Assembly: GCA_027028665.1 (NCBI GenBank)
Contig: JALVIU010000228.1
Location: 1-10,727, forward strand
Direction of reading: 5' to 3'
Length of the DNA: 10,727 nucleotides
Source of the DNA: Candidatus Atribacteria bacterium
GTDB lineage: Bacteria; Atribacterota; JALVIU01
How positions within the stretch are numbered: position 1 is the first letter of the stretch; every line of letters starts with the position of its first letter. The notes beneath the pieces are model-generated. The model saw only the letters and a program-made list of their open reading frames with translations, was not told the origin of the DNA and did not search any database. This document shows, in pieces, positions 1-10,727 of the stretch. A program made the position numbers and the translations under genes.

Positions 1-898
1 GGGTGGACTTGTAAATGAGGCATTACTATATAAATATTTAAAAGAAGGAAAGATAAGAGGTGCAGCACTTGATGTCTTTTCTAAAGAACCCCCTTTGGAA
101 CTACCCCTTCTTGCTCTACCCAATATTGTATATACACCTCATCTTGGTGCATCCACTACAGAGGCGCAATACAGAGCAGGTCTTAATATTGCAAAGGCTA
201 TTCTAGATATACTTAATGGAAGATTCGCACCAAACATAGTGAATATACCTCATCCTACAGAAGATATTGAGGAAATAAAAGAGTTTATAAGGCTGGCAGA
301 AATTATGGGTAATTTATTTGTACAGATAAGCAAGATGCCAGTTGAGGAGATTACCATTGAATATATGGGAGAGCTTGCATCTTTTAATACAGTTATGGTT
401 GGAAGATTTTTTTTAAAGGAGTTTCTTTCTCCTATTGTGCAGGATGTGGTAAACTATGTAAATTCTCCACTTATTGCAAAGCGTAGAGGTATAAATATAA
501 GAGAGATAAAAAATCCAGAATCAAAGGATTATAAGAATCTTATTAAGATTACAGGGTTATCTGGTAATAGTTATAATACACTCGCAGGTACAGTGCTGGA
601 AGGAGGTAAACCACATATTGTTATGATAGATGGATATCCCATAGATCTTGCTCCGTCTGCTAATATGTTAATTGTTACAAATATGGATATTCCAGGAATG
701 ATTGGAAAAGTGGGAACTATATTAGGAAATTATAATATAAATATCGCAGGATTACGGTTAGGTAGAATAGAGAGAGGTGATCTGGCCAAGATTGTTTTAA
801 GTTTGGATGATGAGGTGCCAAGGGATGTAATACTTGAGATTATAGAGCAGGAAGGCATTATAGATGCAATTTTTGTAAAGCTTGATCACAATTATTGA
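1..898 (+). CDS. serA: D-3-phosphoglycerate dehydrogenase, C-terminal part (5' truncated)
   Basis: Oxidises 3-phosphoglycerate to 3-phosphohydroxypyruvate with NAD+, the first step of serine synthesis in the cytoplasm. The reading frame is open from base 2 (GGLVNEALLYKYL...) to a TGA at 896-898, giving 298 residues; roughly the first 230 residues lie outside the window. Visible parts in order: the end of the nucleotide-binding domain with the typical GAALDVFSKEPP stretch, the TPHLGAST segment that carries the catalytic histidine of the family, an intervening (allosteric substrate-binding type) domain, and a C-terminal ACT domain with NMDIPGMIGKVGTILG and NINIAGLRLGR. This is the long, ACT-containing PGDH type, in which serine feedback is usual; that is family knowledge. 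The last 7 nt overlap the stop of the convergent hydrolase gene. An in-frame TTG at 95 is internal and not the start. Confidence 0.95.
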   Translation, partial: GGLVNEALLYKYLKEGKIRGAALDVFSKEPPLELPLLALPNIVYTPHLGASTTEAQYRAGLNIAKAILDILNGRFAPNIVNIPHPTEDIEEIKEFIRLAEIMGNLFVQISKMPVEEITIEYMGELASFNTVMVGRFFLKEFLSPIVQDVVNYVNSPLIAKRRGINIREIKNPESKDYKNLIKITGLSGNSYNTLAGTVLEGGKPHIVMIDGYPIDLAPSANMLIVTNMDIPGMIGKVGTILGNYNINIAGLRLGRIERGDLAKIVLSLDDEVPRDVILEIIEQEGIIDAIFVKLDHNY

Positions 899-1692
899 TC
901 TATGTAAAGTTCCATGCCATCATATGCGGCAATCACCTCTATCCCTGTATCATCCGAGAGTTTTCTTGTAAATTCCCTAGGATTTTGAACGGCGAGAGTC
1001 GTCCCAAAATGTGTAAGAATTATCTTCTTTGGATGAATAATTTTTGTTATATTATATACATCAGCCAGGGAGAGGTGAAATATGTGAGGTTTATTCTCAG
1101 CGAGAAGTACATTTAAGATAATAATATCTCCTTTATAAGATGCAATTATTTCTTCATCAAATTTAGTATCTGTTATAAAAGATATAGTTTTTCCAGGCAA
1201 ATGAAATTTGAATCCGTAGTTTTCTATTTTTCTCTCAATGTCATGATACATCTTTTTGCCTGTAGAAAATTCTACATTTTTTAGTATGTATTTTGTATTT
1301 TCCTTAAGTACTACTATATCCTCTGGATATTCCCGTAGGTATTTCAGTATTACGGGATCTGTGGAAAGTGCATCCTCTGGTGCAAATACTATCCCCTGTT
1401 TTCTCTTTCCTCCATGTGTCATCGATTCTATTATTACATTTATATCTCCTGAGTGATCAAGATGCTTATGAGAGAGGATTATGCCATCGAGCTTTTCAAG
1501 GGCAATGCCCCTTCTTCTTGCCCATACAAGTGCCCCAGGTCCTGGATCAAGATATATCCTTGTATCTTGAATATTCATCCATATCCCAGCTGTCGCTCTT
1601 AGCTGGGTAATCATGGTAAATCGTGCCCCACCTGTCCCAAGAAATACAATTTTATCTCTTCCATTTTCAGCTATTTTCTTAATCCTTGGCAT
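892..1692 (-). CDS. Metallo-beta-lactamase-fold hydrolase (RNase Z-like subgroup)
   Basis: A 266-residue protein with the complete metal-binding set of the metallo-beta-lactamase fold: H75-K-H77-L-D79-H80 (the HxHxDH motif), H150 in MYHD, D175 in FITDT and H228 in LTHFG. The start has the usual FLGTGG beta-strand at 17-22 and YLDPGPG at 47-53. It probably binds two metal ions and hydrolyses a phosphoester or thioester; substrate unknown. The layout resembles RNase Z/phosphodiesterase-like members, but a flexible exosite arm is not obvious, so a tRNA-processing role is not claimed. ATG 1692 is the only reasonable start before the first conserved strand. No Shine-Dalgarno sequence precedes it and a -10 box lies only 6 nt upstream. 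The gene is convergent with serA (7-nt overlap) and divergent from the TetR gene. Confidence 0.85.
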   Translation of the reverse strand: MPRIKKIAENGRDKIVFLGTGGARFTMITQLRATAGIWMNIQDTRIYLDPGPGALVWARRRGIALEKLDGIILSHKHLDHSGDINVIIESMTHGGKRKQGIVFAPEDALSTDPVILKYLREYPEDIVVLKENTKYILKNVEFSTGKKMYHDIERKIENYGFKFHLPGKTISFITDTKFDEEIIASYKGDIIILNVLLAENKPHIFHLSLADVYNITKIIHPKKIILTHFGTTLAVQNPREFTRKLSDDTGIEVIAAYDGMELYIDQ

Positions 1693-1698
1693 ATTTTT

Positions 1699-1725
1699 AT
1701 TATATCATAAAAATTTTTTTGAAAA
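1699..1725 (-). promoter_or_regulatory. Candidate promoter of the hydrolase gene (extended -10)
   Basis: On the minus strand, TATAAT (1704-1699) is preceded by TGA, giving an extended -10 (TGnTATAAT). A weak -35, TTTTCA (1725-1720), lies 15 nt upstream. The predicted start of transcription falls at about 1692, the A of the ATG, so the message would be leaderless. Seen by eye only. Confidence 0.6.
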
Positions 1726-1728
1726 CTA

Positions 1729-1757
1729 TTGACATTCTACCTACTGGTAGGTAAAAT
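1729..1757 (+). promoter_or_regulatory. Promoter of the tetR-radical SAM operon
   Basis: A perfect -35 TTGACA (1729-1734), a 17-nt spacer and a -10 TAAAAT (1752-1757). It lies 22 nt upstream of the tetR start codon. The spacer is almost filled by a palindrome, the likely operator. Confidence 0.85.
1738..1753. promoter_or_regulatory. Putative TetR-family operator (7-2-7 palindrome)
   Basis: TACCTACTGGTAGGTA is a perfect inverted repeat of 7 bp around a central TG. It sits between the -35 and -10 boxes of the tetR promoter and shares two bases with the -10. Size, symmetry and position are as expected for an autorepressing TetR-family dimer. It is about 50 bp upstream of the start of the divergent hydrolase gene, outside that gene's core promoter. 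Confidence 0.75.
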
Positions 1758-1778
1758 ATAAATAAGAGGTGATATGAG

Positions 1779-2387
1779 GTGAAAAACACTAAAAGAGCCA
1801 TTATAGAAGTAGCCCAAAAGTTTTTTTCGCAAAAGAGTTATCACAAAGTCTCCATGGATGAACTTGCAAAAGCGCTTAATCTAAAAAAACCCACACTTTA
1901 TTATTATTTTAAAGGAAAAAAGGAGCTTTTTTTCTCTATCTGGAAAGAAAGCTTTGAAAGTCTTGAAACCTATATATATACGCGAGTAAATGCCAAAATA
2001 TCACCTGATGAAAAATTAAAAGAGTTTATAAAAGCACATCTTGAGTTTGTAGAGGAGCATAGAGAGTTATTTTTGATCTTATATAGAGAAAGATTTGATT
2101 TCTTAAATTTAGGTGAACTTAAAGAGAGTCTGAGTTTTAATTTAGGAGAGGATTATGCAAGGTTTGTGAGAAAATTTAAGGAGGTGATAGAAGAGGGGCA
2201 GAAAATAGGTTTATTTGTTAATGTAGGTGATCCCCTAGACATCGCATATTATATATTAGGAATAATTTATATTACTGCATGGAGATGGCTGGCAGGAGAG
2301 ATAGATGATCTTTCTTCTCAGTGTTCTTCTATTGTAAGTATATTTGAGGATGGCCTTTTTTTAAAAAAGAAGGGAGGTGAATTTTGA
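1779..2387 (+). CDS. TetR/AcrR-family transcriptional regulator
   Basis: A 202-residue regulator with the classic TetR N-terminal DNA-binding domain: AQKFFSQKSYHKVSMDELAKAL followed by the recognition helix region KKPTLYYYFKGKKELF (about residues 24-52). The remaining helical part (about 60-202) is the ligand-binding and dimerisation domain typical of the family; its sequence does not tell the ligand. The start is GTG 1779, with AAGAGGTGAT (1764-1773) as ribosome binding site. The stop TGA (2385-2387) shares its A with the ATG of the radical SAM gene, so the pair is cotranscribed and probably translationally coupled. The palindrome at 1738-1753 inside its own promoter suggests autorepression relieved by a small molecule, perhaps a substrate or product of the radical SAM enzyme (inference). 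Confidence 0.92.
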   Translation: MKNTKRAIIEVAQKFFSQKSYHKVSMDELAKALNLKKPTLYYYFKGKKELFFSIWKESFESLETYIYTRVNAKISPDEKLKEFIKAHLEFVEEHRELFLILYRERFDFLNLGELKESLSFNLGEDYARFVRKFKEVIEEGQKIGLFVNVGDPLDIAYYILGIIYITAWRWLAGEIDDLSSQCSSIVSIFEDGLFLKKKGGEF

Positions 2388-3850
2388 TGGTACGAAAAGA
2401 AAGTTTAATTGATAAGGGAACAAGAGTTGCTTTGCAGAAGGTTATACAGGGAATTGCAAATAGATCAGAAAAACAGCTATTTACAATACTTACACTCTTA
2501 AGTAAAATTGCGCCTGATAAAGACTATAAACAGATACTTGAAAATATTGCAAAGGGCTTTCAAGAAGGAAACACTTCATTTTATAAAACTATCCTCAGGA
2601 TGCTAAAAACAGCACATCCTGAAGTAGTAAAGAAGATTATAAATAATCTGGTTTTAAATGAGATGTTCTTTGGAAACAGGTGGAGGACACAGTGGAAAAA
2701 AGATAATAATCTTCATCCTCCTGTATTTTTAGTGATAAGTCCTACTTATGCCTGCAACCTAAACTGTAAAGGTTGTTATGCAGGTTTATATGGAAATAGA
2801 TATCGTCTGGAATATGAACTTGTTCAGAGAATTATAAGAGAAGCCAATGAGATGGGCATTTATTTCTTTACTATATCTGGAGGAGAGCCATTTTTTTGGA
2901 AAGACCTCTTCAGGATGCTTGAAGAGTTCAATGACTCATACTTTTTAATTTATACTAATGGAACCCTTATAAATAAAGATGTTGCTGCAAGACTTGCAAA
3001 TCTTGGAAATGCAACGCCTGCTATCTCTGTCGAAGGATATGAAGAAGAGACAGATTATAGAAGGGGAAAAGGGGTCTTTAAAAAGGTTATGGAGGCAATG
3101 GATAATTTAAGAGAGGCAGGGGTAATATTTGGTGCATCTATAACTCATACCTCTGTAAACCATGAGATTATTACAAGTGATGCCTTCTGGGATATGCTTA
3201 TAGATAAAGGTGTTTCCTATTCATGGATATTCCAGTTGGTACCTGTAGGAAAGGACGCAAATGATATAAATTATATGCCTACACCTCAACAGAGATTGGA
3301 AAGATATGAAGCTATTACCCGTATAAGAAATACAAAGCCGATTATGATTGCGGATTTCTGGAATGATGGTGCATATGTAAATGGATGTCTTGCAGGTGGT
3401 GCGAAGTACTTGCATATAGATGCAAAAGGTTATGTGGAGCCCTGTGTATTTGCACACTTTGCTGTAGATAACATAAGAGAGAAAAGTTTAAGAGAGGTAA
3501 TCCAAGCCCCATTCTTTAAAGCTATAAGAAAGATAAATCCATATTCAAAGAATCTTCTTGCTCCATGTATGATTATAGATCATCCAGCTATCCTTCGTTC
3601 TTTTGTAAATAAATATGGGGCAGTACCTACACATGATGGAGCAGAGACTATACTCACCACTATAAAGGACGAAGTAGATAGGAGAGCAAGAGAATGGGAA
3701 AACCTTTCAAGGCCTGTTTGGGAGAGAGATTTTGGGTCAAAGGGATATAAAGCTACATTTGGAGTATATTGTGTAGAAAAGGGTCCAATTTTGCCTGAGA
3801 AAGATGTTAAAAAGACGGGAGAAAAAGAACAAAAATCAGCTGCAAGTTAG
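2387..3850 (+). CDS. Radical SAM protein with Twitch/SPASM-like auxiliary cluster motif
   Basis: A 487-residue protein. Residues 1-110 are a helical domain without a motif I recognise. The radical SAM core begins at VFLVISPTYACNLNCKGC, with C123, C127 and C130 (CX3CX2C) for the 4Fe-4S cluster and GGEP at 165-168 for SAM binding. Towards the C-terminus C334-X13-G-X4-C353 fits the Twitch/SPASM signature, with C394 as a further possible ligand, so an auxiliary Fe-S cluster is likely. A Lys/Glu-rich tail ends the protein. Start: ATG 2387 with AGGGAGGTGA (2371-2380) 6 nt upstream, preferred over TTG 2384. It is coupled to tetR and followed by a strong terminator. No peptide precursor gene lies next to it, so a RiPP role is not supported here. 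The substrate is unknown; a link to membrane-lipid radical chemistry (Mss-like proteins of thermophiles) is only a guess to be tested. Confidence 0.88.
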   Translation: MVRKESLIDKGTRVALQKVIQGIANRSEKQLFTILTLLSKIAPDKDYKQILENIAKGFQEGNTSFYKTILRMLKTAHPEVVKKIINNLVLNEMFFGNRWRTQWKKDNNLHPPVFLVISPTYACNLNCKGCYAGLYGNRYRLEYELVQRIIREANEMGIYFFTISGGEPFFWKDLFRMLEEFNDSYFLIYTNGTLINKDVAARLANLGNATPAISVEGYEEETDYRRGKGVFKKVMEAMDNLREAGVIFGASITHTSVNHEIITSDAFWDMLIDKGVSYSWIFQLVPVGKDANDINYMPTPQQRLERYEAITRIRNTKPIMIADFWNDGAYVNGCLAGGAKYLHIDAKGYVEPCVFAHFAVDNIREKSLREVIQAPFFKAIRKINPYSKNLLAPCMIIDHPAILRSFVNKYGAVPTHDGAETILTTIKDEVDRRAREWENLSRPVWERDFGSKGYKATFGVYCVEKGPILPEKDVKKTGEKEQKSAAS

Positions 3851-3865
3851 GTTGTATATATTTTG

Positions 3866-3899
3866 AAAGAGGTATCTCGAAAGAGATGCCTCTTTTTTT
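3866..3899 (+). terminator. Intrinsic terminator of the tetR-radical SAM operon
   Basis: A stem of 10 bp (3869-3878 with 3883-3892, one G-U) closed by a GAAA tetraloop, extended by three A-T pairs and followed by seven T (3893-3899). It starts 16 nt after the stop codon. Confidence 0.93.
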
Positions 3900-3909
3900 A
3901 TATACTCTA

Positions 3910-3938
3910 TTTTCAAATTTGATTTTTTATGCTATTAT
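3910..3938 (+). promoter_or_regulatory. Candidate promoter of the five-gene operon (extended -10)
   Basis: TTTTCA (3910-3915), a 17-nt spacer and TATTAT (3933-3938) with an upstream TGC giving an extended -10. It lies just after the previous terminator and leaves a leader of about 27 nt before ATG 3972. The same -35 variant (TTTTCA) is seen at the hydrolase promoter. Confidence 0.6.
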
Positions 3939-3971
3939 AAATTAATGGAAACCAAATATGAGGTGGGTTGA

Positions 3972-4955
3972 ATGTTGATTTTATTGAAAATAATTTTATT
4001 TTTAGGATATCTCTTATTGACAAGTATATTGTTATTTATTGGTGCACTTGGTATTTGGGCAAAAAACTTCAAGTTAGGTCTTCCCATACTAGGGTTTGGA
4101 ATTATATCTGGATATGGTGTTTATGTAACATATATGTGGTATACACAGCCACTTTTATTCGTAACTATATTTTTTATGGTGGTTGCTGCCTTATTCCTCT
4201 TCTATATAATGGAGCCAAATTTAACTTTTAAGGAACGTTTTTTATCCCCTGAACAACTTTTAAAAGAAGGCAAAAAGAAAAAAGCCGCATATAAGTACCA
4301 AAAAATAGGAAAATATGAAGAAGCAGCAAAACTTTATGAGGAAATGGATATGCCAGAGAGTGCAATGTGGGCATATGAAGAGGTAAGAAATTGGGATAAA
4401 GTGGCATCACTTGCAGAGTTTATAGGTAAAAGAGAAGAAGATGGGGACTATTATATTCGAAAGGCGAGAGAGATATACAAGGATAAGCTTTCAAATTATA
4501 GAAAGGCGGCAGAGCTTACCGAGATAATTGCCAGAGATGAGGGATGGTACTGGAGAGAAGCAGCTGAGCTTTACGAGAAAGTAGGTGATATTGAAAAGGC
4601 CAGGAAGTGTTTGGAGGCATCTTTAGAGTATTACAAGGAAGAGGCAAAGGAAGATGGAGTTTTCTATGATGATGTGGCAGAGGATTATAAGAGATTAGGG
4701 GATAAAGAGAAGGCAAAAGAGGCATACATAGAATATATAGAATACTGTAAGGAACAATCTGAAGAGGATAAAGGATGGCTAAGGCATGTAGCAGAGGGTT
4801 ATTATAGTTTATATAAACTTACAGGTGATGATAGTTATCTAAAAGAAGGTGATAAGTATCTGGAAAGGTATAAGGTAGAGTATGTAGATGAAAATATAAA
4901 GGATGAGGAGTATAAAAAGGAACTTATTGCAGAGATAGAATCTTACAAAAAATAA
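3972..4955 (+). CDS. Membrane protein with three N-terminal helices and TPR-like cytoplasmic domain
   Basis: A 327-residue protein of unknown function. Three hydrophobic segments can be placed at about residues 3-29, 36-56 and 60-80. They are followed by a charged, strongly helical domain (about 90-327) with repeated helix pairs of TPR character: YQKIGKYEEAAKLYEEM (109-125), YRKAAELTEIIARDEGWYWREAAELYEKVGDIEKARKC read in parts over 176-213, and VAEDYKRLGDKEKAKEAYIEY (235-255). TPR arrays bind other proteins, so this is probably a membrane-anchored scaffold or sensor (inference). Start: ATG with GAGGTG at 3960-3965, 6 nt upstream. It is the first gene of the operon, and the FolB-like gene starts 15 nt after its stop. 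Confidence 0.82.
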   Translation: MLILLKIILFLGYLLLTSILLFIGALGIWAKNFKLGLPILGFGIISGYGVYVTYMWYTQPLLFVTIFFMVVAALFLFYIMEPNLTFKERFLSPEQLLKEGKKKKAAYKYQKIGKYEEAAKLYEEMDMPESAMWAYEEVRNWDKVASLAEFIGKREEDGDYYIRKAREIYKDKLSNYRKAAELTEIIARDEGWYWREAAELYEKVGDIEKARKCLEASLEYYKEEAKEDGVFYDDVAEDYKRLGDKEKAKEAYIEYIEYCKEQSEEDKGWLRHVAEGYYSLYKLTGDDSYLKEGDKYLERYKVEYVDENIKDEEYKKELIAEIESYKK

Positions 4956-4970
4956 AAAGGGGTGAAAAAG

Positions 4971-5348
4971 ATGATCGCAAAGGTTTCATTAAATGATATG
5001 CTTTTTTATGGTTTTCATGGCTCTATGGAGGTAGAAAGAGAACTTGGTCAAAAGTTTCTTGTGGATATAGTACTTACCTTTAATGTAAAAGATGCAGTAG
5101 AAAGTGATTCACCTAATAAAACCATAAGCTCATATGCGATATATCAACTTACAAGAGAAATTGTTACAGAGAGAAAGTTTTCTCTTATTGAGACCCTTGC
5201 ATACAATATAGGAAAGGCTTTTATCGAAAAATATCCAGAACTTTTACAGATTTTGATAAGAATAAAGAGACCAAATCTTTATCTAAGTGGTATAGTAGGT
5301 AGTGCAGAAGTCGAAATGGAACTTGGAAGAGAGGACATCGAGGGATAA
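4971..5348 (+). CDS. folB: FolB-like protein (dihydroneopterin aldolase fold) with altered catalytic positions
   Basis: A 125-residue protein of the tunnelling-fold family. FolB cleaves 7,8-dihydroneopterin to 6-hydroxymethyl-dihydropterin and glycolaldehyde in folate synthesis. Conserved parts: YGFHG (13-17), ELGQKFLVDI (24-33), LIETLA (72-77) and the C-terminal SAEVEME strand. Compared without gaps with my recollection of the Staphylococcus aureus enzyme, E22 and E74 are kept, but Tyr54 is Ser (a Tyr follows at 55) and the catalytic Lys100 is Arg (a Lys precedes at 99). The PPIPG loop after it is NLYLSG. Function as an aldolase is therefore uncertain. Start: ATG 4971 with AAGGGGTG (4957-4964) well spaced; the upstream GTG 4962 lies within this ribosome binding site. 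No other folate gene is in the window. Confidence 0.8.
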   Translation: MIAKVSLNDMLFYGFHGSMEVERELGQKFLVDIVLTFNVKDAVESDSPNKTISSYAIYQLTREIVTERKFSLIETLAYNIGKAFIEKYPELLQILIRIKRPNLYLSGIVGSAEVEMELGREDIEG

Positions 5349-5351
5349 ACT

Positions 5352-6347
5352 ATGAAGGTTATACTTCCTGTTGCAGGAAAGGGTACCAGACTCAGACCTC
5401 ACACCCATACAAAGCCAAAATCCCTTGTACAAGTTGCAGGTAAAGCGGTTATCGATTATATCCTTGAAGAGCTTTCCATATTGAAGGATGTAGATAAATA
5501 TATATTTATTGTAGATGAAAATGGTAGTGAGGTAAAAAAGTATATAGAAGATAGATATCCATCTCTTAATACAGTTTTTATTCCCCAAAAACAGAGATTA
5601 GGGCCTGCCCATGCTGTTTATCTTGCAAAAGATGAGGTTAATGAAGGTGAAGATATCTTTATTGTCTTTAATGATACCATATTTATTACGGACCTTTATG
5701 TAATATATACACTTAAAAGCAGATATGATGGTCTTATATTTTCAAAAGAAGTAGAAGATTATAAACGTTTTGGTGTAAATGTAGTAAAGGACAACTATAT
5801 AGTAGATATGATAGAAAAGCCAGATAAACCCATATCTAAGCTCGCTCAAGTGGGACTATACTATCTAAAAGACGGAAAAACTCTGATGTCATATATTGAT
5901 AAGGCTATAAGGGAAGATAAAAAAGTAAAAGGAGAGTTTTATTTACCTCCTGTATTTAAAATGATGATAGAGGATGGTTTCAAGTTTGGAGCACCAGAGA
6001 TAGATGTATGGCTCGATTGTGGCAAACCAGAGACATTACTTGAGACAAATAGGTATCTTCTAAAGAAAAACAATAAAATATTTGGAGAGCTTGAAAATGT
6101 GGCTATAATTTCTCCTGTGTATATAGGAAAGGGCTCTATAATAAGAAATACAGTGATAGGACCCAATGTCTCTGTGGCTGAAGAGTGTACAATAGAGCGT
6201 GCGATACTTGAAGATTGCATTATAAATAGAGGTTCTCATATAAAGGATATAGTAATTACTCATTCCCTCGTTGGAGAAAATGTATATGTATCAGGTAAGG
6301 GAGAGAGGTTAAATATCGGCGATGATTCTGTATTAGAAATTACTTGA
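5352..6347 (+). CDS. Sugar-1-phosphate nucleotidyltransferase with left-handed beta-helix tail
   Basis: A 331-residue enzyme that joins a nucleoside triphosphate and a sugar-1-phosphate to an NDP-sugar and pyrophosphate in the cytoplasm. The N-terminal Rossmann-like domain (about 1-240) has the signature VAGKGTRLRPHTHTKPKSL (7-25, K23 being the family's catalytic lysine), the metal site at FNDT (106-109, with Asn where most members have Gly), FGVN (140-143), EKP (155-157) and GEFYLPP (194-200). Residues about 245-331 contain hexapeptide-like repeats (VYIGKGSII, VIGPNVSV, VGENVYVS) of a left-handed beta helix, as in RmlA-long, GlgC and GlmU relatives. No acyl- or acetyltransferase site is evident. 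Base and sugar cannot be read from sequence alone. Start: ATG 5352 with GAGGG at 5340-5344, 3 nt after the FolB-like stop. Its stop overlaps the next start. Confidence 0.9.
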   Translation: MKVILPVAGKGTRLRPHTHTKPKSLVQVAGKAVIDYILEELSILKDVDKYIFIVDENGSEVKKYIEDRYPSLNTVFIPQKQRLGPAHAVYLAKDEVNEGEDIFIVFNDTIFITDLYVIYTLKSRYDGLIFSKEVEDYKRFGVNVVKDNYIVDMIEKPDKPISKLAQVGLYYLKDGKTLMSYIDKAIREDKKVKGEFYLPPVFKMMIEDGFKFGAPEIDVWLDCGKPETLLETNRYLLKKNNKIFGELENVAIISPVYIGKGSIIRNTVIGPNVSVAEECTIERAILEDCIINRGSHIKDIVITHSLVGENVYVSGKGERLNIGDDSVLEIT

Positions 6348-6952
6348 TGGTGGTTACTACGCGGATACTTGGTATATCTGATAAGGTAGAAAAAATTTTA
6401 TATGATAATTTCAATAAAGAGTTTTTTGAGGGCATAGACCTCATTATTTCATGTGGGGATTTAAGGCCTGATTTTCTTTCTTTTTTGGTAGATGCTACAA
6501 ACCTTCCTCTCTTTTATGTAAAGGGGAATCATGATCTTATCTACAAGAAAAAACCCCCCCTTGGATGTGATTCTATAGATGGAAAGATAGTAGAGTTTAG
6601 AGGTATAACCTTTTTGGGCATAGGGGGCTCCATCTGGTATAATGGTAAGGGAATCCAATATACAGAGAAACAGATGAGAGCTCGGATAAGAAAGATTTTA
6701 AGACCTTTCTTTATAAAGAGGAGAGTAGATAAAGTAGATGTAATAGTTACACACTCTCCCCCCTTTGGAATACATGATGATACAGATAGGGCTCATATAG
6801 GTTTTAAAGTTTTTATAGATCTTATACGAGAACTAAGACCTAAGTATTTGTTACACGGTCATGTGCAGCCCAGATCTTATGGAGATAGAGTTACAAATTT
6901 TGAGGGTACAAAGATTGTAAATGTATTTGGACATTATAGGATAGATATATGA
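6347..6952 (+). CDS. Calcineurin-like metallophosphoesterase
   Basis: A 201-residue phosphoesterase. Motifs in order: D12 in GISDKVE, GD at 37-38, GNHD at 60-63, TH at 135-136 (followed by SPP) and GHVQ at 171-174. These match the metal-binding blocks of the calcineurin-like superfamily, except that block 1 lacks the usual histidine of D-x-H (D12-K-V here). The substrate is unknown; proteins of this size include phosphodiesterases and nucleotidases. Start: ATG 6347, whose A is the last base of the preceding stop (TGATG). No Shine-Dalgarno sequence is visible, which points to termination-reinitiation coupling with the nucleotidyltransferase. It overlaps the next gene by ATGA. The reading frame crosses AAAAAACCCCCCC (6549-6561), a run liable to slippage. 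Confidence 0.87.
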   Translation: MVVTTRILGISDKVEKILYDNFNKEFFEGIDLIISCGDLRPDFLSFLVDATNLPLFYVKGNHDLIYKKKPPLGCDSIDGKIVEFRGITFLGIGGSIWYNGKGIQYTEKQMRARIRKILRPFFIKRRVDKVDVIVTHSPPFGIHDDTDRAHIGFKVFIDLIRELRPKYLLHGHVQPRSYGDRVTNFEGTKIVNVFGHYRIDI

Positions 6953-7752
6953 GACGGAAAAATCGATTAGAAAGCTTTGAAGATGCAGCGAAGAAAGAAA
7001 AAGCCATAACAAGTATATATTTAGGTCTTAAAGATGTAGAGCTTGATAAAATTGTAGGAAGTCTGGGTAGATATCAAGATTTCCTGGAAAATTTTGTACC
7101 CCTTTCTCCTGTAGTTAAAGATAAGGTAGAGAGAATGAAAAAGCTTATGATTGAAGAGGATTTACCCCCTGTGGAACTTTATGTAATAAAGGATAGATAT
7201 TATGTAGTAGATGGTAATCATAGAGTAGCAGCGGCTAAGGCTCTGGGTTTTAAAACTATACCTGCATATGTAACAGAATATCTACCACCTGCTGATAGAG
7301 AAGAGCATATATTGCTTTATGAGAGGTCCATGTTTGAAAAGACAACAGGGCTGGATATAAAAATTACAGAACCCGGGAAATATAAGATCTTGCTAAATCA
7401 AATAGAGGAACATAAAAGGGCATTAGCTAAGGAATTAAAGTTTGAACCTACATTGAGAGAAGCAGCCCTTTCATGGTATTATAAGGTATATTTACCCATT
7501 GTTAAGATTATTCGAAAAATTGGTATACTTAATAAATTTCCTGGTAGAACAGAAGGAGATTTATTTATTTATATATGTAACCATAAATGGTTTGAAAGTG
7601 AGAAAGAGGGGAGAGATATAGGATTCGAAAGAGCAATAGAGAGCTTTCTAAGATTGAACAATTATGAAGTAGGTATAAAATATAGAAATAAATTTATAAA
7701 TTTCTTATATAGGTTTAAAGATATATTGGGTTTAAAATCACTTAATTTATAA
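6949..7752 (+). CDS. ParB/Srx-fold domain protein of unknown function
   Basis: A 267-residue protein. Residues about 70-110 carry the ParB/sulfiredoxin-type core: LPPVELYVIKDRYYVVDGNHR (72-92) with the DGNHR box at 88-92, then AAAKALGFKTIPAYV. This fold binds nucleotides or CTP in ParB, ATP in sulfiredoxin, and serves as a nuclease or kinase in others. There is no ParB-type helix-turn-helix that I recognise and no parA neighbour, so chromosome partition is unlikely. The C-terminal half (about 145-267) is helical and contains HKWFESEKEGRDIGFERA (212-229), which looks conserved and recalls a domain (DUF4032-like) seen after ParB-type domains in other bacteria; this is memory, not a search result. 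Start: ATG 6949 overlaps the phosphoesterase stop by ATGA, with TAGGAT upstream. The tRNA gene begins 8 nt after its TAA. Confidence 0.78.
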   Translation: MRRKNRLESFEDAAKKEKAITSIYLGLKDVELDKIVGSLGRYQDFLENFVPLSPVVKDKVERMKKLMIEEDLPPVELYVIKDRYYVVDGNHRVAAAKALGFKTIPAYVTEYLPPADREEHILLYERSMFEKTTGLDIKITEPGKYKILLNQIEEHKRALAKELKFEPTLREAALSWYYKVYLPIVKIIRKIGILNKFPGRTEGDLFIYICNHKWFESEKEGRDIGFERAIESFLRLNNYEVGIKYRNKFINFLYRFKDILGLKSLNL

Positions 7753-7753
7753 A
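7726..7753 (+). promoter_or_regulatory. Weak candidate promoter for tRNA-Pro and the thiamine operon
   Basis: TTGGGT (7726-7731), a 16-nt spacer and TATAAA (7748-7753), inside the end of the ParB-like gene. Transcription would start near 7760, essentially at the first base of the tRNA. The -35 matches only three of six consensus bases, so read-through from the upstream operon is an equal alternative. Confidence 0.3.
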
Positions 7754-7760
7754 GAATTAC

Positions 7761-7834
7761 CGGGGCGTAGCGCAGTTTGGCAGCGCGCTTGGTTCGGGAC
7801 CAAGAGGTCGGAGGTTCAAGTCCTCTCGCCCCGA
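7761..7834 (+). tRNA. tRNA-Pro, anticodon CGG
   Basis: A full cloverleaf of 74 nt. The acceptor stem CGGGGCG (7761-7767) pairs perfectly with CGCCCCG (7827-7833), with discriminator A7834. The D arm is GCGC/GCGC. The anticodon stem CTTGG/CCAAG (7788-7792, 7800-7804) encloses loop TTCGGGA with anticodon CGG at 7795-7797, reading CCG. The T arm is GGAGG-TTCAAGT-CCTCT with one G-U pair. CCA is not encoded and must be added by the CCA-adding enzyme. The high GC of the gene against the AT-rich surroundings is usual for a tRNA, most of all in a thermophile. It lies 8 nt after a coding sequence and 11 nt before the TPP aptamer. Confidence 0.97.
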
Positions 7835-7845
7835 TACTGAATATA

Positions 7846-7928
7846 GAGTCCAGGGGTGCTTACATCTTGTAGGCTGAGAGATACCCTTTGAACCTGATCT
7901 GGGTAATGCCAGCGTAGGGAGGGAGCTC
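7846..7928 (+). promoter_or_regulatory. TPP riboswitch aptamer (THI element)
   Basis: All conserved blocks are present in order: CAGGGGTGC (7851-7859), a P3 hairpin CTTACA...TGTAGG, CTGAGAG with ATACCC (P2 partner of GGGGT), CTTTGAACCTGATCTGGGT, AATGCCAGCGTAGGGA and a closing GAGC/GCTC-like P1. It binds thiamine pyrophosphate. The aptamer is followed by an intrinsic terminator, so binding should stop transcription of thiB-thiP. CAGGGGT (7851-7857) can alternatively pair with ACCCCTG (7938-7944), the 5' arm of the terminator, which gives the antiterminator state. Confidence 0.97.
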
Positions 7929-7937
7929 AAGGCTTAT

Positions 7938-7966
7938 ACCCCTGTTTTTTGCAGGGGAATTTTTTT
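7938..7966 (+). terminator. Riboswitch-controlled intrinsic terminator
   Basis: CCCCTG (7939-7944) pairs with CAGGGG (7952-7957) around a TTTTTTG loop; AA and seven T (7960-7966) follow. It lies 10 nt after the TPP aptamer and 33 nt before thiB, and is expected to form when TPP is bound. Confidence 0.92.
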
Positions 7967-7998
7967 GGCACCCTCAAAATAAAAAAGGAGGTGCTGAA

Positions 7999-8997
7999 AT
8001 GTCTAAGTTTTTTAAGTTTTTAGGTTTTGTATTTGTTTTTATCTTCCTGGCAAGTGGGGCCTGGGGTCTTACCATCTATTCCTATGATAGCTTTGTATCT
8101 TATGGTCTTTCAAAAAAGGTAATCCCACTATTTGAAAAAATGACAGGGGAGAAGGTGATTGTACGGACATACGGAGATGCAGGTGCAGTACTTTCTCGTC
8201 TTATACTGGAGAAGAAAAGACCAAAGGCAGATCTTGTGATAGGGATAGATCAGAACCTTTTACCTCGCGCCCTAAAGAGTGGTGTACTTTCCCCATATAA
8301 GCCAGAGAATATCACTAATATCCATAATAAAGGGCTTATTTTTGATCCTACATATCATGTAATCCCTTATGATTATGGGGCAATTGCTATTGTTTATGAT
8401 AAGGAAAAGCTTAAGAATCCACCTGAGAGTTTTGAGGAGCTTTTGGATAAAAAATATAAGGGTTCTCTTATACTTGAAGATCCAAGGACCTCCAGTACAG
8501 GACTTGCCTTTTTGTATTGGACTATTGCAGTATACGGAAATGATTTTACCAAATACTGGAAGAGCCTCCTTCCCAATATACTTACTATTACTTCAGGGTG
8601 GGATGAGGCATTTGAGCTTTTTTCAAATGGTGAGGCCCCTATGATGGTAAGTTATGCGACAGATCCTGCATATAGCTATGAAAACTATAAAAGCACAAGA
8701 TATGGGGCTCTTATATTCAAAGAGGGGGGCTATATCCAGATAGAAGGGGCAGGTATAGTAAAGGGGACAAAAGATAGAAAGATGGCAGAAAGATTTATAG
8801 AATTTATGCTAACCTCTGAATTCCAGAAAGAGATACCCCTTACTCAGTGGATGTTTCCTGTGGTGGATGTAGGCTTACCAGAGTGTTTTAAGTATGCTGC
8901 AAAGATAGATAAGATACTCTCTCTTCCACCAGATAGGATTTCTAAAAATCAAGATAAATGGATTCGCAAGTGGGAAGAAATTGTTGTATCTAAATAG
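7999..8997 (+). CDS. thiB: Thiamine ABC transporter, periplasmic substrate-binding protein
   Basis: A 332-residue binding protein (also called TbpA) that captures thiamine, and in relatives its phosphates, outside the membrane and hands it to ThiP. Residues 1-23 are a signal peptide (FFKFLGFVFVFIFLASGAWG) with no lipobox cysteine, so the mature protein should be soluble in a periplasm. The mature start LTIYSYDSF matches the TbpA start. Further family stretches are KADLVIGIDQNLL (77-89), PYDYGAIAIVYDKEKLKNPP (123-142), EDPRTSSTGLA (160-170), TSGWDEAFELF (198-208), SYATDPAY (218-225) and TQWMFPV (282-288). W201, Y225 and W284 correspond, with a constant +4 offset, to the ligand-stacking W197, Y221 and W280 that I recall for E. 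coli TbpA. Start: ATG with AAGGAGGTG (7985-7993). It is regulated by the TPP riboswitch upstream. Confidence 0.95.
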   Translation: MSKFFKFLGFVFVFIFLASGAWGLTIYSYDSFVSYGLSKKVIPLFEKMTGEKVIVRTYGDAGAVLSRLILEKKRPKADLVIGIDQNLLPRALKSGVLSPYKPENITNIHNKGLIFDPTYHVIPYDYGAIAIVYDKEKLKNPPESFEELLDKKYKGSLILEDPRTSSTGLAFLYWTIAVYGNDFTKYWKSLLPNILTITSGWDEAFELFSNGEAPMMVSYATDPAYSYENYKSTRYGALIFKEGGYIQIEGAGIVKGTKDRKMAERFIEFMLTSEFQKEIPLTQWMFPVVDVGLPECFKYAAKIDKILSLPPDRISKNQDKWIRKWEEIVVSK

Positions 8998-10576
8998 AAA
9001 ATGGGGATTGGCATCTTTTTGGATGCCAATCCTTTTTTTTCTTATATTTTTTTACTTTCCTGTAATATTTTTTCTTGGGGAAAATTTCTCTTTTTCAGGG
9101 TTATTTTCTTTCTTGACAGATACCCTTTATATAAAGATATTTTCTTTTACCTTTAAAGAGGCCTTTTTATCTGCCTTTTTGACAACACTTTTGGCCCTTC
9201 CCGGTGCCTATCTTGTAGCACGGACACATTTTAGAGGTAGATCTATTTTTCTCTCTCTGTCACTTATTGCATTTGTCATGCCTGGTATAAGTGTGGCATT
9301 AGGTTTTGTGCTTTTGTTCGGGAGAAGGGGCTTATTTTTTTCTATGTTTGGAGTAAATATTCCTATTCTATATACATTTTGGGCGATAATCCTTGCACAT
9401 ATTTTTTACAATTTTGCACTTTCGGTAAGGATCATAGGGAGTCAGTGGGAGAAGCTTTCTATAAATTATGAAGAAGAGGCAAAGATACAGGGAGCCAATG
9501 CGCTTCAGGTATTTTATTTTGTAGATCTTCCGTATCTTTTTCCATCTATACTTTCTTCTTTCTTTATAATATTTATCTATTCTTTTATGAGTTTTGCGAT
9601 AGTCCTTGTACTGGGAGGGGTAAGATATGTGACCCTTGAGGTAGAGATATATATGTATCTTACAAAACTTATAAATTTTGGAGAAGCTGCCAAACTTGTA
9701 TGGATCCAGTTTATTGTACTTTTGATCTTTGCCTATCTCTTACTTATTACAAAAAGGGGTATTACTTTTGAATACGAAAATGATGAGGTGATAAGAAAGG
9801 GATTTCCCATATGGGGATATATCTACCTTATAATTGTAGCTTTTATAGTATTTGTCCCTATGGGGGCTATGCTTTTAGGAGGGTTTTGGGATTTTATCCA
9901 TCATAGGATTACCCTTTTATGGTTTAGAAATATTTTTTCTCAAGGATTTAGTCCATTTGTAGGAACAACACTTCTCCTTCCCATCGGGAATACCTTTAGA
10001 TATGGAATATATACAGTGCTTTTGACTATCATTCTTGTTGTCCTGGGAAGTTTTTATATAATCTATAGAGGAAGATATAAAAATCTCTTTTCACTTATCT
10101 TTATATCTTCTCTATTTATCTCTCCTATTACCCTTGCATTTTCCTATATATTTCTTGGAAATTGGATCTTTATTCCATCACGGATACTCATAGTATTAGC
10201 CCATAGCATGATAGCACTTCCTGTGGCTATGCAAATATTTTTTGGGGCAAGAGAGTCAGTACCTTTATCACTGAGAGAGGCTGCCTTTATAGATGGTGCA
10301 GGGATCTTAAAAACCTTTATATTTGTAGAGCTTCCTATGCTTATACCCGCTCTTATCTCTACAATTACTATCACATTTGCTATATCGATAGGGGAAGTAG
10401 GTGCTACTCTTCTCTTGTATGAGGCACCTGAGAATATGACTATCTCTGTGGCAATGGTTAGACTTCTAAGTGCAAGAAGACTTGGGGAAACTCAGGCCTA
10501 TTCTACTTTACTCTTTATTATTGCATTTTTATTATTTGTAATTACTGATATCTTTCTGAGAAAAACAAATAGATGA
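8981..10576 (+). CDS. thiP: Thiamine ABC transporter, permease (fused two-domain)
   Basis: A 531-residue inner-membrane permease with two tandem binding-protein-dependent transport domains, the usual ThiP length and layout (about 12 helices). Each half has the cytoplasmic EAA loop that docks the ATPase: EEEAKIQGANALQVFYFVDLP (164-184) and REAAFIDGAGILKTFIFVELP (432-452). The first helix begins at about residue 15 (MPILFFLIFFYF). The start is uncertain: TTG 8981 or 8984 (GGGA at 8972-8975), overlapping thiB by up to 17 nt, or ATG 9023 with GGGG at 9003-9006 upstream. The frame is open throughout. An intrinsic-terminator-like hairpin lies over codons 9-20. No ATPase gene (thiQ) follows; the next gene is on the other strand, so the ATPase must be encoded elsewhere or shared. 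Confidence 0.93.
   Translation: MLYLNRKWGLASFWMPILFFLIFFYFPVIFFLGENFSFSGLFSFLTDTLYIKIFSFTFKEAFLSAFLTTLLALPGAYLVARTHFRGRSIFLSLSLIAFVMPGISVALGFVLLFGRRGLFFSMFGVNIPILYTFWAIILAHIFYNFALSVRIIGSQWEKLSINYEEEAKIQGANALQVFYFVDLPYLFPSILSSFFIIFIYSFMSFAIVLVLGGVRYVTLEVEIYMYLTKLINFGEAAKLVWIQFIVLLIFAYLLLITKRGITFEYENDEVIRKGFPIWGYIYLIIVAFIVFVPMGAMLLGGFWDFIHHRITLLWFRNIFSQGFSPFVGTTLLLPIGNTFRYGIYTVLLTIILVVLGSFYIIYRGRYKNLFSLIFISSLFISPITLAFSYIFLGNWIFIPSRILIVLAHSMIALPVAMQIFFGARESVPLSLREAAFIDGAGILKTFIFVELPMLIPALISTITITFAISIGEVGATLLLYEAPENMTISVAMVRLLSARRLGETQAYSTLLFIIAFLLFVITDIFLRKTNR
9005..9040 (+). terminator. Terminator-like hairpin inside the start of thiP
   Basis: GGATTGGCATC (9005-9015) pairs perfectly over 11 bp with GATGCCAATCC (9022-9032); the loop is TTTTTG, and eight T follow directly (9033-9040). 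This is a textbook intrinsic terminator shape, yet it starts 8 nt after the thiB stop and lies in the coding sequence for the first residues of ThiP. It may lower thiP expression relative to thiB, or occlude the ATG at 9023, which lies in its 3' arm. Confidence 0.7.
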
Positions 10577-10600
10577 GATAATCCTTAACTATATAAACCC

Positions 10601-10638
10601 AATAACAGGGAAGCCCCCTTGGGGGCTTCCCTGTTATT
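10601..10638. terminator. Bidirectional hairpin terminator between convergent genes
   Basis: A perfect 18-bp inverted repeat (10601-10618 with 10621-10638), with core GGGAAGCCCCC/GGGGGCTTCCC and a TT centre. It starts 24 nt after the thiP stop and ends 18 nt before the stop of the minus-strand gene. There is no long T run outside the repeat; the TGTTATT in each outer arm is the only T-rich tract. The symmetry lets it serve both strands. Confidence 0.78.
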
Positions 10639-10656
10639 ACAAAAAGAAGGAGGGGT

Positions 10657-10727
10657 TTAAAGCTTCTTATGGCATAACCACCAATCGAAGCAGTCATATT
10701 CCTTTGGTCTTTTCTCTGCCTCCTCTA
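10657..10727 (-). CDS. C-terminal end of an unidentified gene (5' part outside window)
   Basis: On the minus strand a frame is open from the window edge to TAA at 10659-10657 and gives 22 residues, EEAEKRPKEYDCFDWWLCHKKL read in two parts (EEAEKRPKEYD, CFDWWLCHKKL). The composition is plausible for a real protein end, and the stop lies close to the bidirectional hairpin, as expected for a convergent gene. Two cysteines flank a WW pair; no family can be named from so little. Confidence 0.5.
   Translation of the reverse strand, partial: EEAEKRPKEYDCFDWWLCHKKL

Follow-up and report, generated by a model that had tools for sequence, protein, structure and literature searches.

A hairpin with the form of an intrinsic terminator lies at the junction of thiB and thiP in a genome of Candidatus Atribacteria bacterium, where the two genes overlap and the permease frame is already open. 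This raises the question of whether the element acts on transcription, on the stability of the message or on translation, or is a by-product of the protein that it encodes. The window is the whole stretch of DNA analysed, 10,727 nt comprising positions 1-10,727 of the forward strand of contig JALVIU010000228.1 (assembly GCA_027028665.1).

Layout of the thiB-thiP operon and its hairpin

The first control point of the operon is a TPP riboswitch (Table 1), followed by a terminator-like stem-loop that is probably its expression platform and is weaker than the thiB-thiP hairpin. A tRNA gene (7761-7834) is located directly 5' of the riboswitch, which occupies 7842-7964 including its stem-loop, and the region 6949-7752 encodes a protein matching DUF4032 whose start weakly resembles ParB_N/SerK. 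The thiB gene ends with the TAG codon 8995-8997, and thiP is predicted to start at TTG 8981 or TTG 8984; from TTG 8981 to 10576 the frame contains no internal stop codon. The product scores 84 bits against the ThiP model TIGR01253, below the curated cut-off of 395, and matches to the NCBIfam thiP models stay below cut-off; the name thiP-like is therefore given on account of synteny with thiB and the TPP riboswitch. A ThiQ-type ATPase is absent from 10576-10727, after thiP, suggesting that the ATPase is encoded elsewhere or shared, and the operon closes with a strong stem-loop, probably its terminator.

Table 1. Coordinates of features in and around the thiB-thiP operon
Feature	Position	Strand	Basis
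TPP riboswitch aptamer, 5' of thiB	7842..7938	+	Rfam RF00059, 73.5 bits (gathering 54.3)
Terminator-like stem-loop with T-run	7939..7964	+	Pattern scan; fold of 7928-7968, -13.4 kcal/mol
thiB, thiamine ABC transporter substrate-binding protein	7999..8997	+	TIGR01254, 270 bits (cut-off 93.4)
thiP-like permease with two domains; its 5' end overlaps thiB	8981..10576	+	Open frame; PF00528; synteny with thiB; overlap layout common with relatives
A-rich spacer AAAATGG, thiB stop to stem	8998..9004	+	Partial pairing with the T-run in the fold
Hairpin 5' arm GGATTGGCATC	9005..9015	+	Sequence, pattern scan, fold
Hairpin loop TTTTTG	9016..9021	+	Sequence; the fold turns two loop bases into one extra pair
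Hairpin 3' arm GATGCCAATCC, containing in-frame ATG 9023	9022..9032	+	Sequence, pattern scan, fold
T8 tract, encoding Leu-Phe-Phe in the first membrane helix of ThiP	9033..9040	+	Sequence, frame
Strong stem-loop 3' of thiP	10600..10639	.	Pattern scan; fold -31.6 kcal/mol; + strand without T-run

An intrinsic terminator has a short-looped stem that contains GC and is at least about 7 bp long, with a T-rich tract adjoining it. The stem of the thiB-thiP hairpin consists of 11 perfect pairs, six of them G-C, with a loop of 6 nt; its first base is the eighth after the thiB stop codon, and eight T adjoin it at 9033-9040. A pattern scan of the window flags 9005-9040 as a terminator-like site. The hairpin folds with -19.5 kcal/mol for the 28-nt core (z -7.6) and -22.8 kcal/mol with its G-U and A-U extension, and a fold of 8975-9065 yields the terminator hairpin alone, with no competing antiterminator in that stretch. 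Since thiP starts 5' of the hairpin, the element is coding: the stem encodes residues ~9-18, and in-frame TTG 9008 and ATG 9023 both fall within the element. An earlier inspection of these letters (the sequence-only reading) had described a perfect 11-bp stem, 6-nt loop and eight T just past the thiB stop, a thiP frame running unbroken through them and a T run encoding the start of the first membrane helix, all of which agrees with the present analysis. A repeat element was rejected as the origin of the hairpin, as the genome has no second exact copy of the stem. A frame error in the T run as the source of the open frame was likewise rejected by inspection, because the frame on both sides matches the N-termini of relatives.

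Chance expectation and stem-loops at other permease junctions

The chance of such a hairpin was estimated by synonymous recoding of the thiP codons with the codon usage of both genes, keeping the protein and the end of thiB fixed. The terminator score of the real sequence was matched by 23 of 40,000 recodings (about 6 in 10,000); the thiP stem is thus unlikely to have arisen by chance given the protein, and the earlier claim that one stretch is both a terminator-like hairpin and coding sequence is supported by the sequence evidence. With the encoded residues and the gene's codon bias taken into account, the eight T have a probability of 0.59, so the stem, not the T run, is the unexpected part. 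In 177 kb of coding frames from the same genome, a sample of long frames on both strands that surely includes some non-genes, the hairpin far outranks every other in-ORF terminator-like site (-23.2, with the runner-up at -13.7); the genome-wide base rate was taken from 159 kb of sampled contigs. The energy scan used a simple nearest-neighbour script that allowed one mismatch and was checked against the fold tool for the window only.

Stem-loops are also found where other substrate-binding protein (SBP) genes of the source genome are followed by permease genes. Counting hairpins that reach about -13 kcal/mol and lie no more than 110 nt past the SBP stop, a strong stem-loop is present at 10 of 12 SBP-to-permease junctions (L052, L053, L054, L059, L066, L071, L072, L073, L077 and thiB-thiP) versus none of 13 permease-to-permease junctions (Fisher p 2e-5), the junction classes having been assigned by the analyst, unblinded, with SBP identity from a Pfam check of ten upstream genes and the permease identity of the other genes from gene order. 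The same contrast was observed in a Pseudothermotoga genome (G241), and a genome with fewer junctions (G410) has a stem-loop at 4/5 SBP junctions versus 0/8 permease junctions. Most of the SBP stem-loops in the source genome are intergenic, 5' of the permease start. Hairpins inside the permease frame were identified at L077 in the source genome (55-92 nt past the SBP stop, -22.2 kcal/mol) and at L243 in G241 (97-122 nt, -20.0 kcal/mol), each with p 0.0003; both permease genes abut or overlap their SBP gene. The permease start is also abutting or overlapping at L242, where no in-ORF stem was found.

Hairpins at thiB-thiP junctions in relatives

A scan of genome contigs with ThiP revealed no close relatives; the relatives compared lie outside the order of the source organism and were obtained from a ThiB-alignment scan and whole-genome searches. 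The end of thiB was readable at 124 loci, with thiP directly 3' in 79. Some thiB genes without thiP (L112, L117, L126 and L177) have an ordinary terminator at a similar distance. Among 50 genomes of the phylum that were searched, only the source genome has a thiB above the TIGR01254 cut-off, a distribution that points to gain of thiBP in this genome or to its loss in the others. The best matches of the source thiB are in Thermotogota, Spirochaetota and bins labelled Thermococcus, and together with the distribution of the gene they hint at possible horizontal transfer.

At many thiB-thiP junctions of these distant relatives, Thermotogota among them, the first thiP codons contain hairpins of unrelated sequence. 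These include GGTGCCGATA/TATCGGCACC followed by TTTTTGAT in Pseudothermotoga (L113, L211-L213), hairpins of the GGGGGA/TCCCC types (L214-L222), GATGGGGG/CCCCCATC at L131 and GAGCAGTGG/CCACTGCTC at L163. Of the 63 distinct thiB-thiP junctions set against the recoding null, 19 reach p<=0.01, compared with about 1% of control windows from +225 along thiP, which indicates that the null is calibrated; the 63 junctions are non-independent, and at least 7 lineages with unrelated stems are represented among them (Pseudothermotoga, Thermosipho-group genomes, L131, L163, L175, L192 and L198). That related bacteria have hairpins of different origin at much the same position suggests that an RNA brake is maintained by selection, in favour of more binding protein than membrane protein. 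A significant junction hairpin is absent at many thiBP loci, mostly GC-rich ones but also some in Thermotogota. In the Thermosipho-group relatives the pairing slides in register, and column-by-column covariation was therefore set aside. In Mesoaciditoga-type thiP genes (L137, L144 and L147) the stem CACCTGCC/GGCAGGTG is kept with single-sided changes and without a clear U-run.

The overlap of the two genes, a layout typical of translational coupling, and the position of ATG 9023 in the 3' arm could also be read as control of translation, with the hairpin hiding this ATG or delaying the leading ribosomes, which would tie translation of thiP to that of thiB; the L175 stem similarly covers a possible start ATG. 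The sequence-only reading had offered such a hidden start. However, a start at ATG 9023 has no visible ribosome-binding site, leaves zero residues ahead of the first helix and would lose an N-terminus that is present in relatives. The start of thiP commonly overlaps thiB: Pseudothermotoga has an ATG at -4, the Thermosipho group an ATG at -28 and the source genome a TTG at -17 or -14. In the first two groups the start lies 20-45 nt 5' of the hairpin, and relatives mostly start thiP ahead of their hairpins. The SBP stem-loops of the source genome, most of which are intergenic and 5' of the permease start, speak against this reading too. Masking of ATG 9023 is poorly supported, and translational control as the main function is improbable.

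In thiP genes from four Pseudothermotoga species, codons for conserved residues are identical in all at 6 of 8 positions in the element versus 58 of 293 (20%) elsewhere (Fisher p 0.0015). The frozen codons are GTG CCG and GGC ACC in the stem and TTT TTG in the U-tract. A smaller Mesoaciditoga set, in which the U-run is absent, points in the same direction (4/5, p 0.025), and no codon constraint in the element was seen in a third small thiP set. As far as codon comparison goes, these data show synonymous constraint on the element in one genus, Pseudothermotoga.

These observations bear on the possibility that the hairpin is a functionless by-product of T-rich helix codons and chance codon choice. 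The amino acids alone would account for the T run at the probability given above, and for the stem the single-locus p is only ~0.0006 in a finding picked from a scan. Nevertheless, hairpins of different sequence recur at thiB-thiP junctions and are missing from the control windows, and neither the frozen codons of Pseudothermotoga nor the SBP/permease pattern of the source genome fits a passive origin, which makes it very improbable.

Proposed mechanism and its known counterparts

The thiB-thiP element is probably an in-ORF version of the internal terminators known from SBP/permease operons, with partial read-through that keeps ThiB above ThiP. It would act as a partial intrinsic terminator of the thiB 3' end, accommodated within the thiP frame. 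Most polymerases that have passed the TPP riboswitch and thiB would stop at the T8 tract, producing a thiB-only mRNA with a stable hairpin at its end, while a minority would read through to give the thiP transcript, so that the binding protein would be made in excess of the permease. The Phe/Leu-rich codons of the first helix give the U-tract free, and therefore only the stem would need to be built by codon choice.

In Ruminiclostridium cellulolyticum, stem-loops 3' of SBP genes terminate 21-96% of transcription and set the SBP:translocator ratio (Wu et al. 2022, PMC9045158); in a Clostridial reporter the class with a clear U-tract terminates more than 90%, and a variant with an 11-bp stem 98.1%. 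The thiB-thiP stem-loop resembles these terminators in lying just past an SBP gene and before its cognate translocator (a TIGR01254 thiB followed by a PF00528 permease), in folding below -10 kcal/mol (-19.5 core, -22.8 extended), in its U-tract of the strongest class (Type I) and A-U stem extension, and in the high SBP:translocator ratio proposed for it. Unlike them, it belongs to overlapping genes under TPP riboswitch control, and the whole element is permease coding sequence. As thiP is open from 5' of the thiB stop through the element, its location is not intergenic, and it is filed as a variant that would act like this class rather than as a member of it. The survey in R. cellulolyticum searched intergenic regions >50 bp, and overlapping genes thus fell outside it. 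A high ThiB:ThiP ratio, already put forward in the sequence-only reading, is its likely role and fits both the SBP/permease stem-loops of the source genome and the terminators of Clostridia.

Taken over all loci, the U-tract has no more T than the Phe and Leu residues of the first membrane helix require: 122 T were observed after the stem against a synonymous expectation of 118, and selection on the U-tract across loci was not seen. The malE-malF intercistronic repeats, which protect RNA from 3' exonucleases, offer a parallel for a hairpin that mainly stabilises a 3' end. The full mRNA would then be cut or trimmed inside thiP, with the stem shielding the thiB part from 3' exonucleases and no real termination. 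Such a role is consistent with selection being visible on the stem and not on the U-tract, and with the lack of a clear U-run in several relatives and several intergenic SBP stem-loops (L137, L147, L247 and L250). However, the stem in the window is preceded by an A-tract and followed by eight T, the form that terminates >90% in the Clostridial reporter (PMC9045158), and stabilisation without termination is rather unlikely.

If the element acts as a partial terminator, its dependence on translation is plausible. Work with E. coli test constructs (Li et al. 2015, PMC4824070) found that coupled translation brings a terminator down to <10% when it follows a stop codon by only 5-6 bp, and that terminators placed in the initial 100 bp of a coding region remain active. 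The thiB-thiP hairpin occupies a comparable place, a few nt past a stop codon and within 100 bp of the start of the following frame, and ribosome and hairpin may interfere; those constructs were synthetic and carried the phage terminator tR2 in E. coli, whereas the thiB-thiP element is natural, recurrent and found in other phyla. Since a ribosome ending the upstream gene suppresses such a terminator, translation of thiB could raise read-through: a ribosome finishing thiB, or one starting thiP, would cover the 5' arm. The size of this effect could depend on how closely ribosomes trail the polymerase in the source organism. As in leader-peptide attenuation, formation of the terminator hairpin could be governed by ribosomes on the upstream frame; in contrast to it, that frame is a complete structural gene rather than a leader peptide, and the fold of 8975-9065 shows no competing antiterminator. 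A 3'-end mapping study in E. coli (Adams et al. 2021, PMC7815308) describes ORF-internal 3' ends, which likewise present premature termination within ORFs as a regulatory possibility. No description of in-ORF terminators at SBP/permease junctions turned up in a search of the open-access literature.

Chances are about even that these hairpins represent a recurrent solution for compact genomes, in which a permease gene overlapping its SBP gene carries the stoichiometry-setting stem-loop in its first codons, the naturally U-rich first helix provides the U-tract, and the element arose anew with unrelated sequences in several lineages. This would join two known ideas that are usually separate: the setting of subunit ratios by internal terminators, and gene overlap without intergenic room. 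Terminator surveys restricted to regions between genes would then overlook overlapping genes, and hidden terminators could be sought in the opening codons of membrane proteins, where helix codons supply a U-tract free. Pseudothermotoga and relatives of Thermosipho would provide a testable case, in cultured thermophiles, of synonymous-codon selection for termination.

Further hairpins were noted in or near thiP. A 23-pair hairpin without terminator form (-26.9 kcal/mol, p 0.0007) is located at the thiP start, 16-67 nt past the thiB stop, in a bin labelled Methanomicrobia archaeon (L194). The in-ORF hairpins at L051 and L056 (~+106) were left out of the in-ORF terminator count; they have no U-tract, and a conserved PGDP motif lies at or beside them. 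In some genomes where thiP has no hairpin in its first 75 nt, a strong one occurs at +106 to +209, still in thiP and near the second membrane helix (+106 to +146 in L151, L161 and L172; +187 to +209 in L116 and L185).
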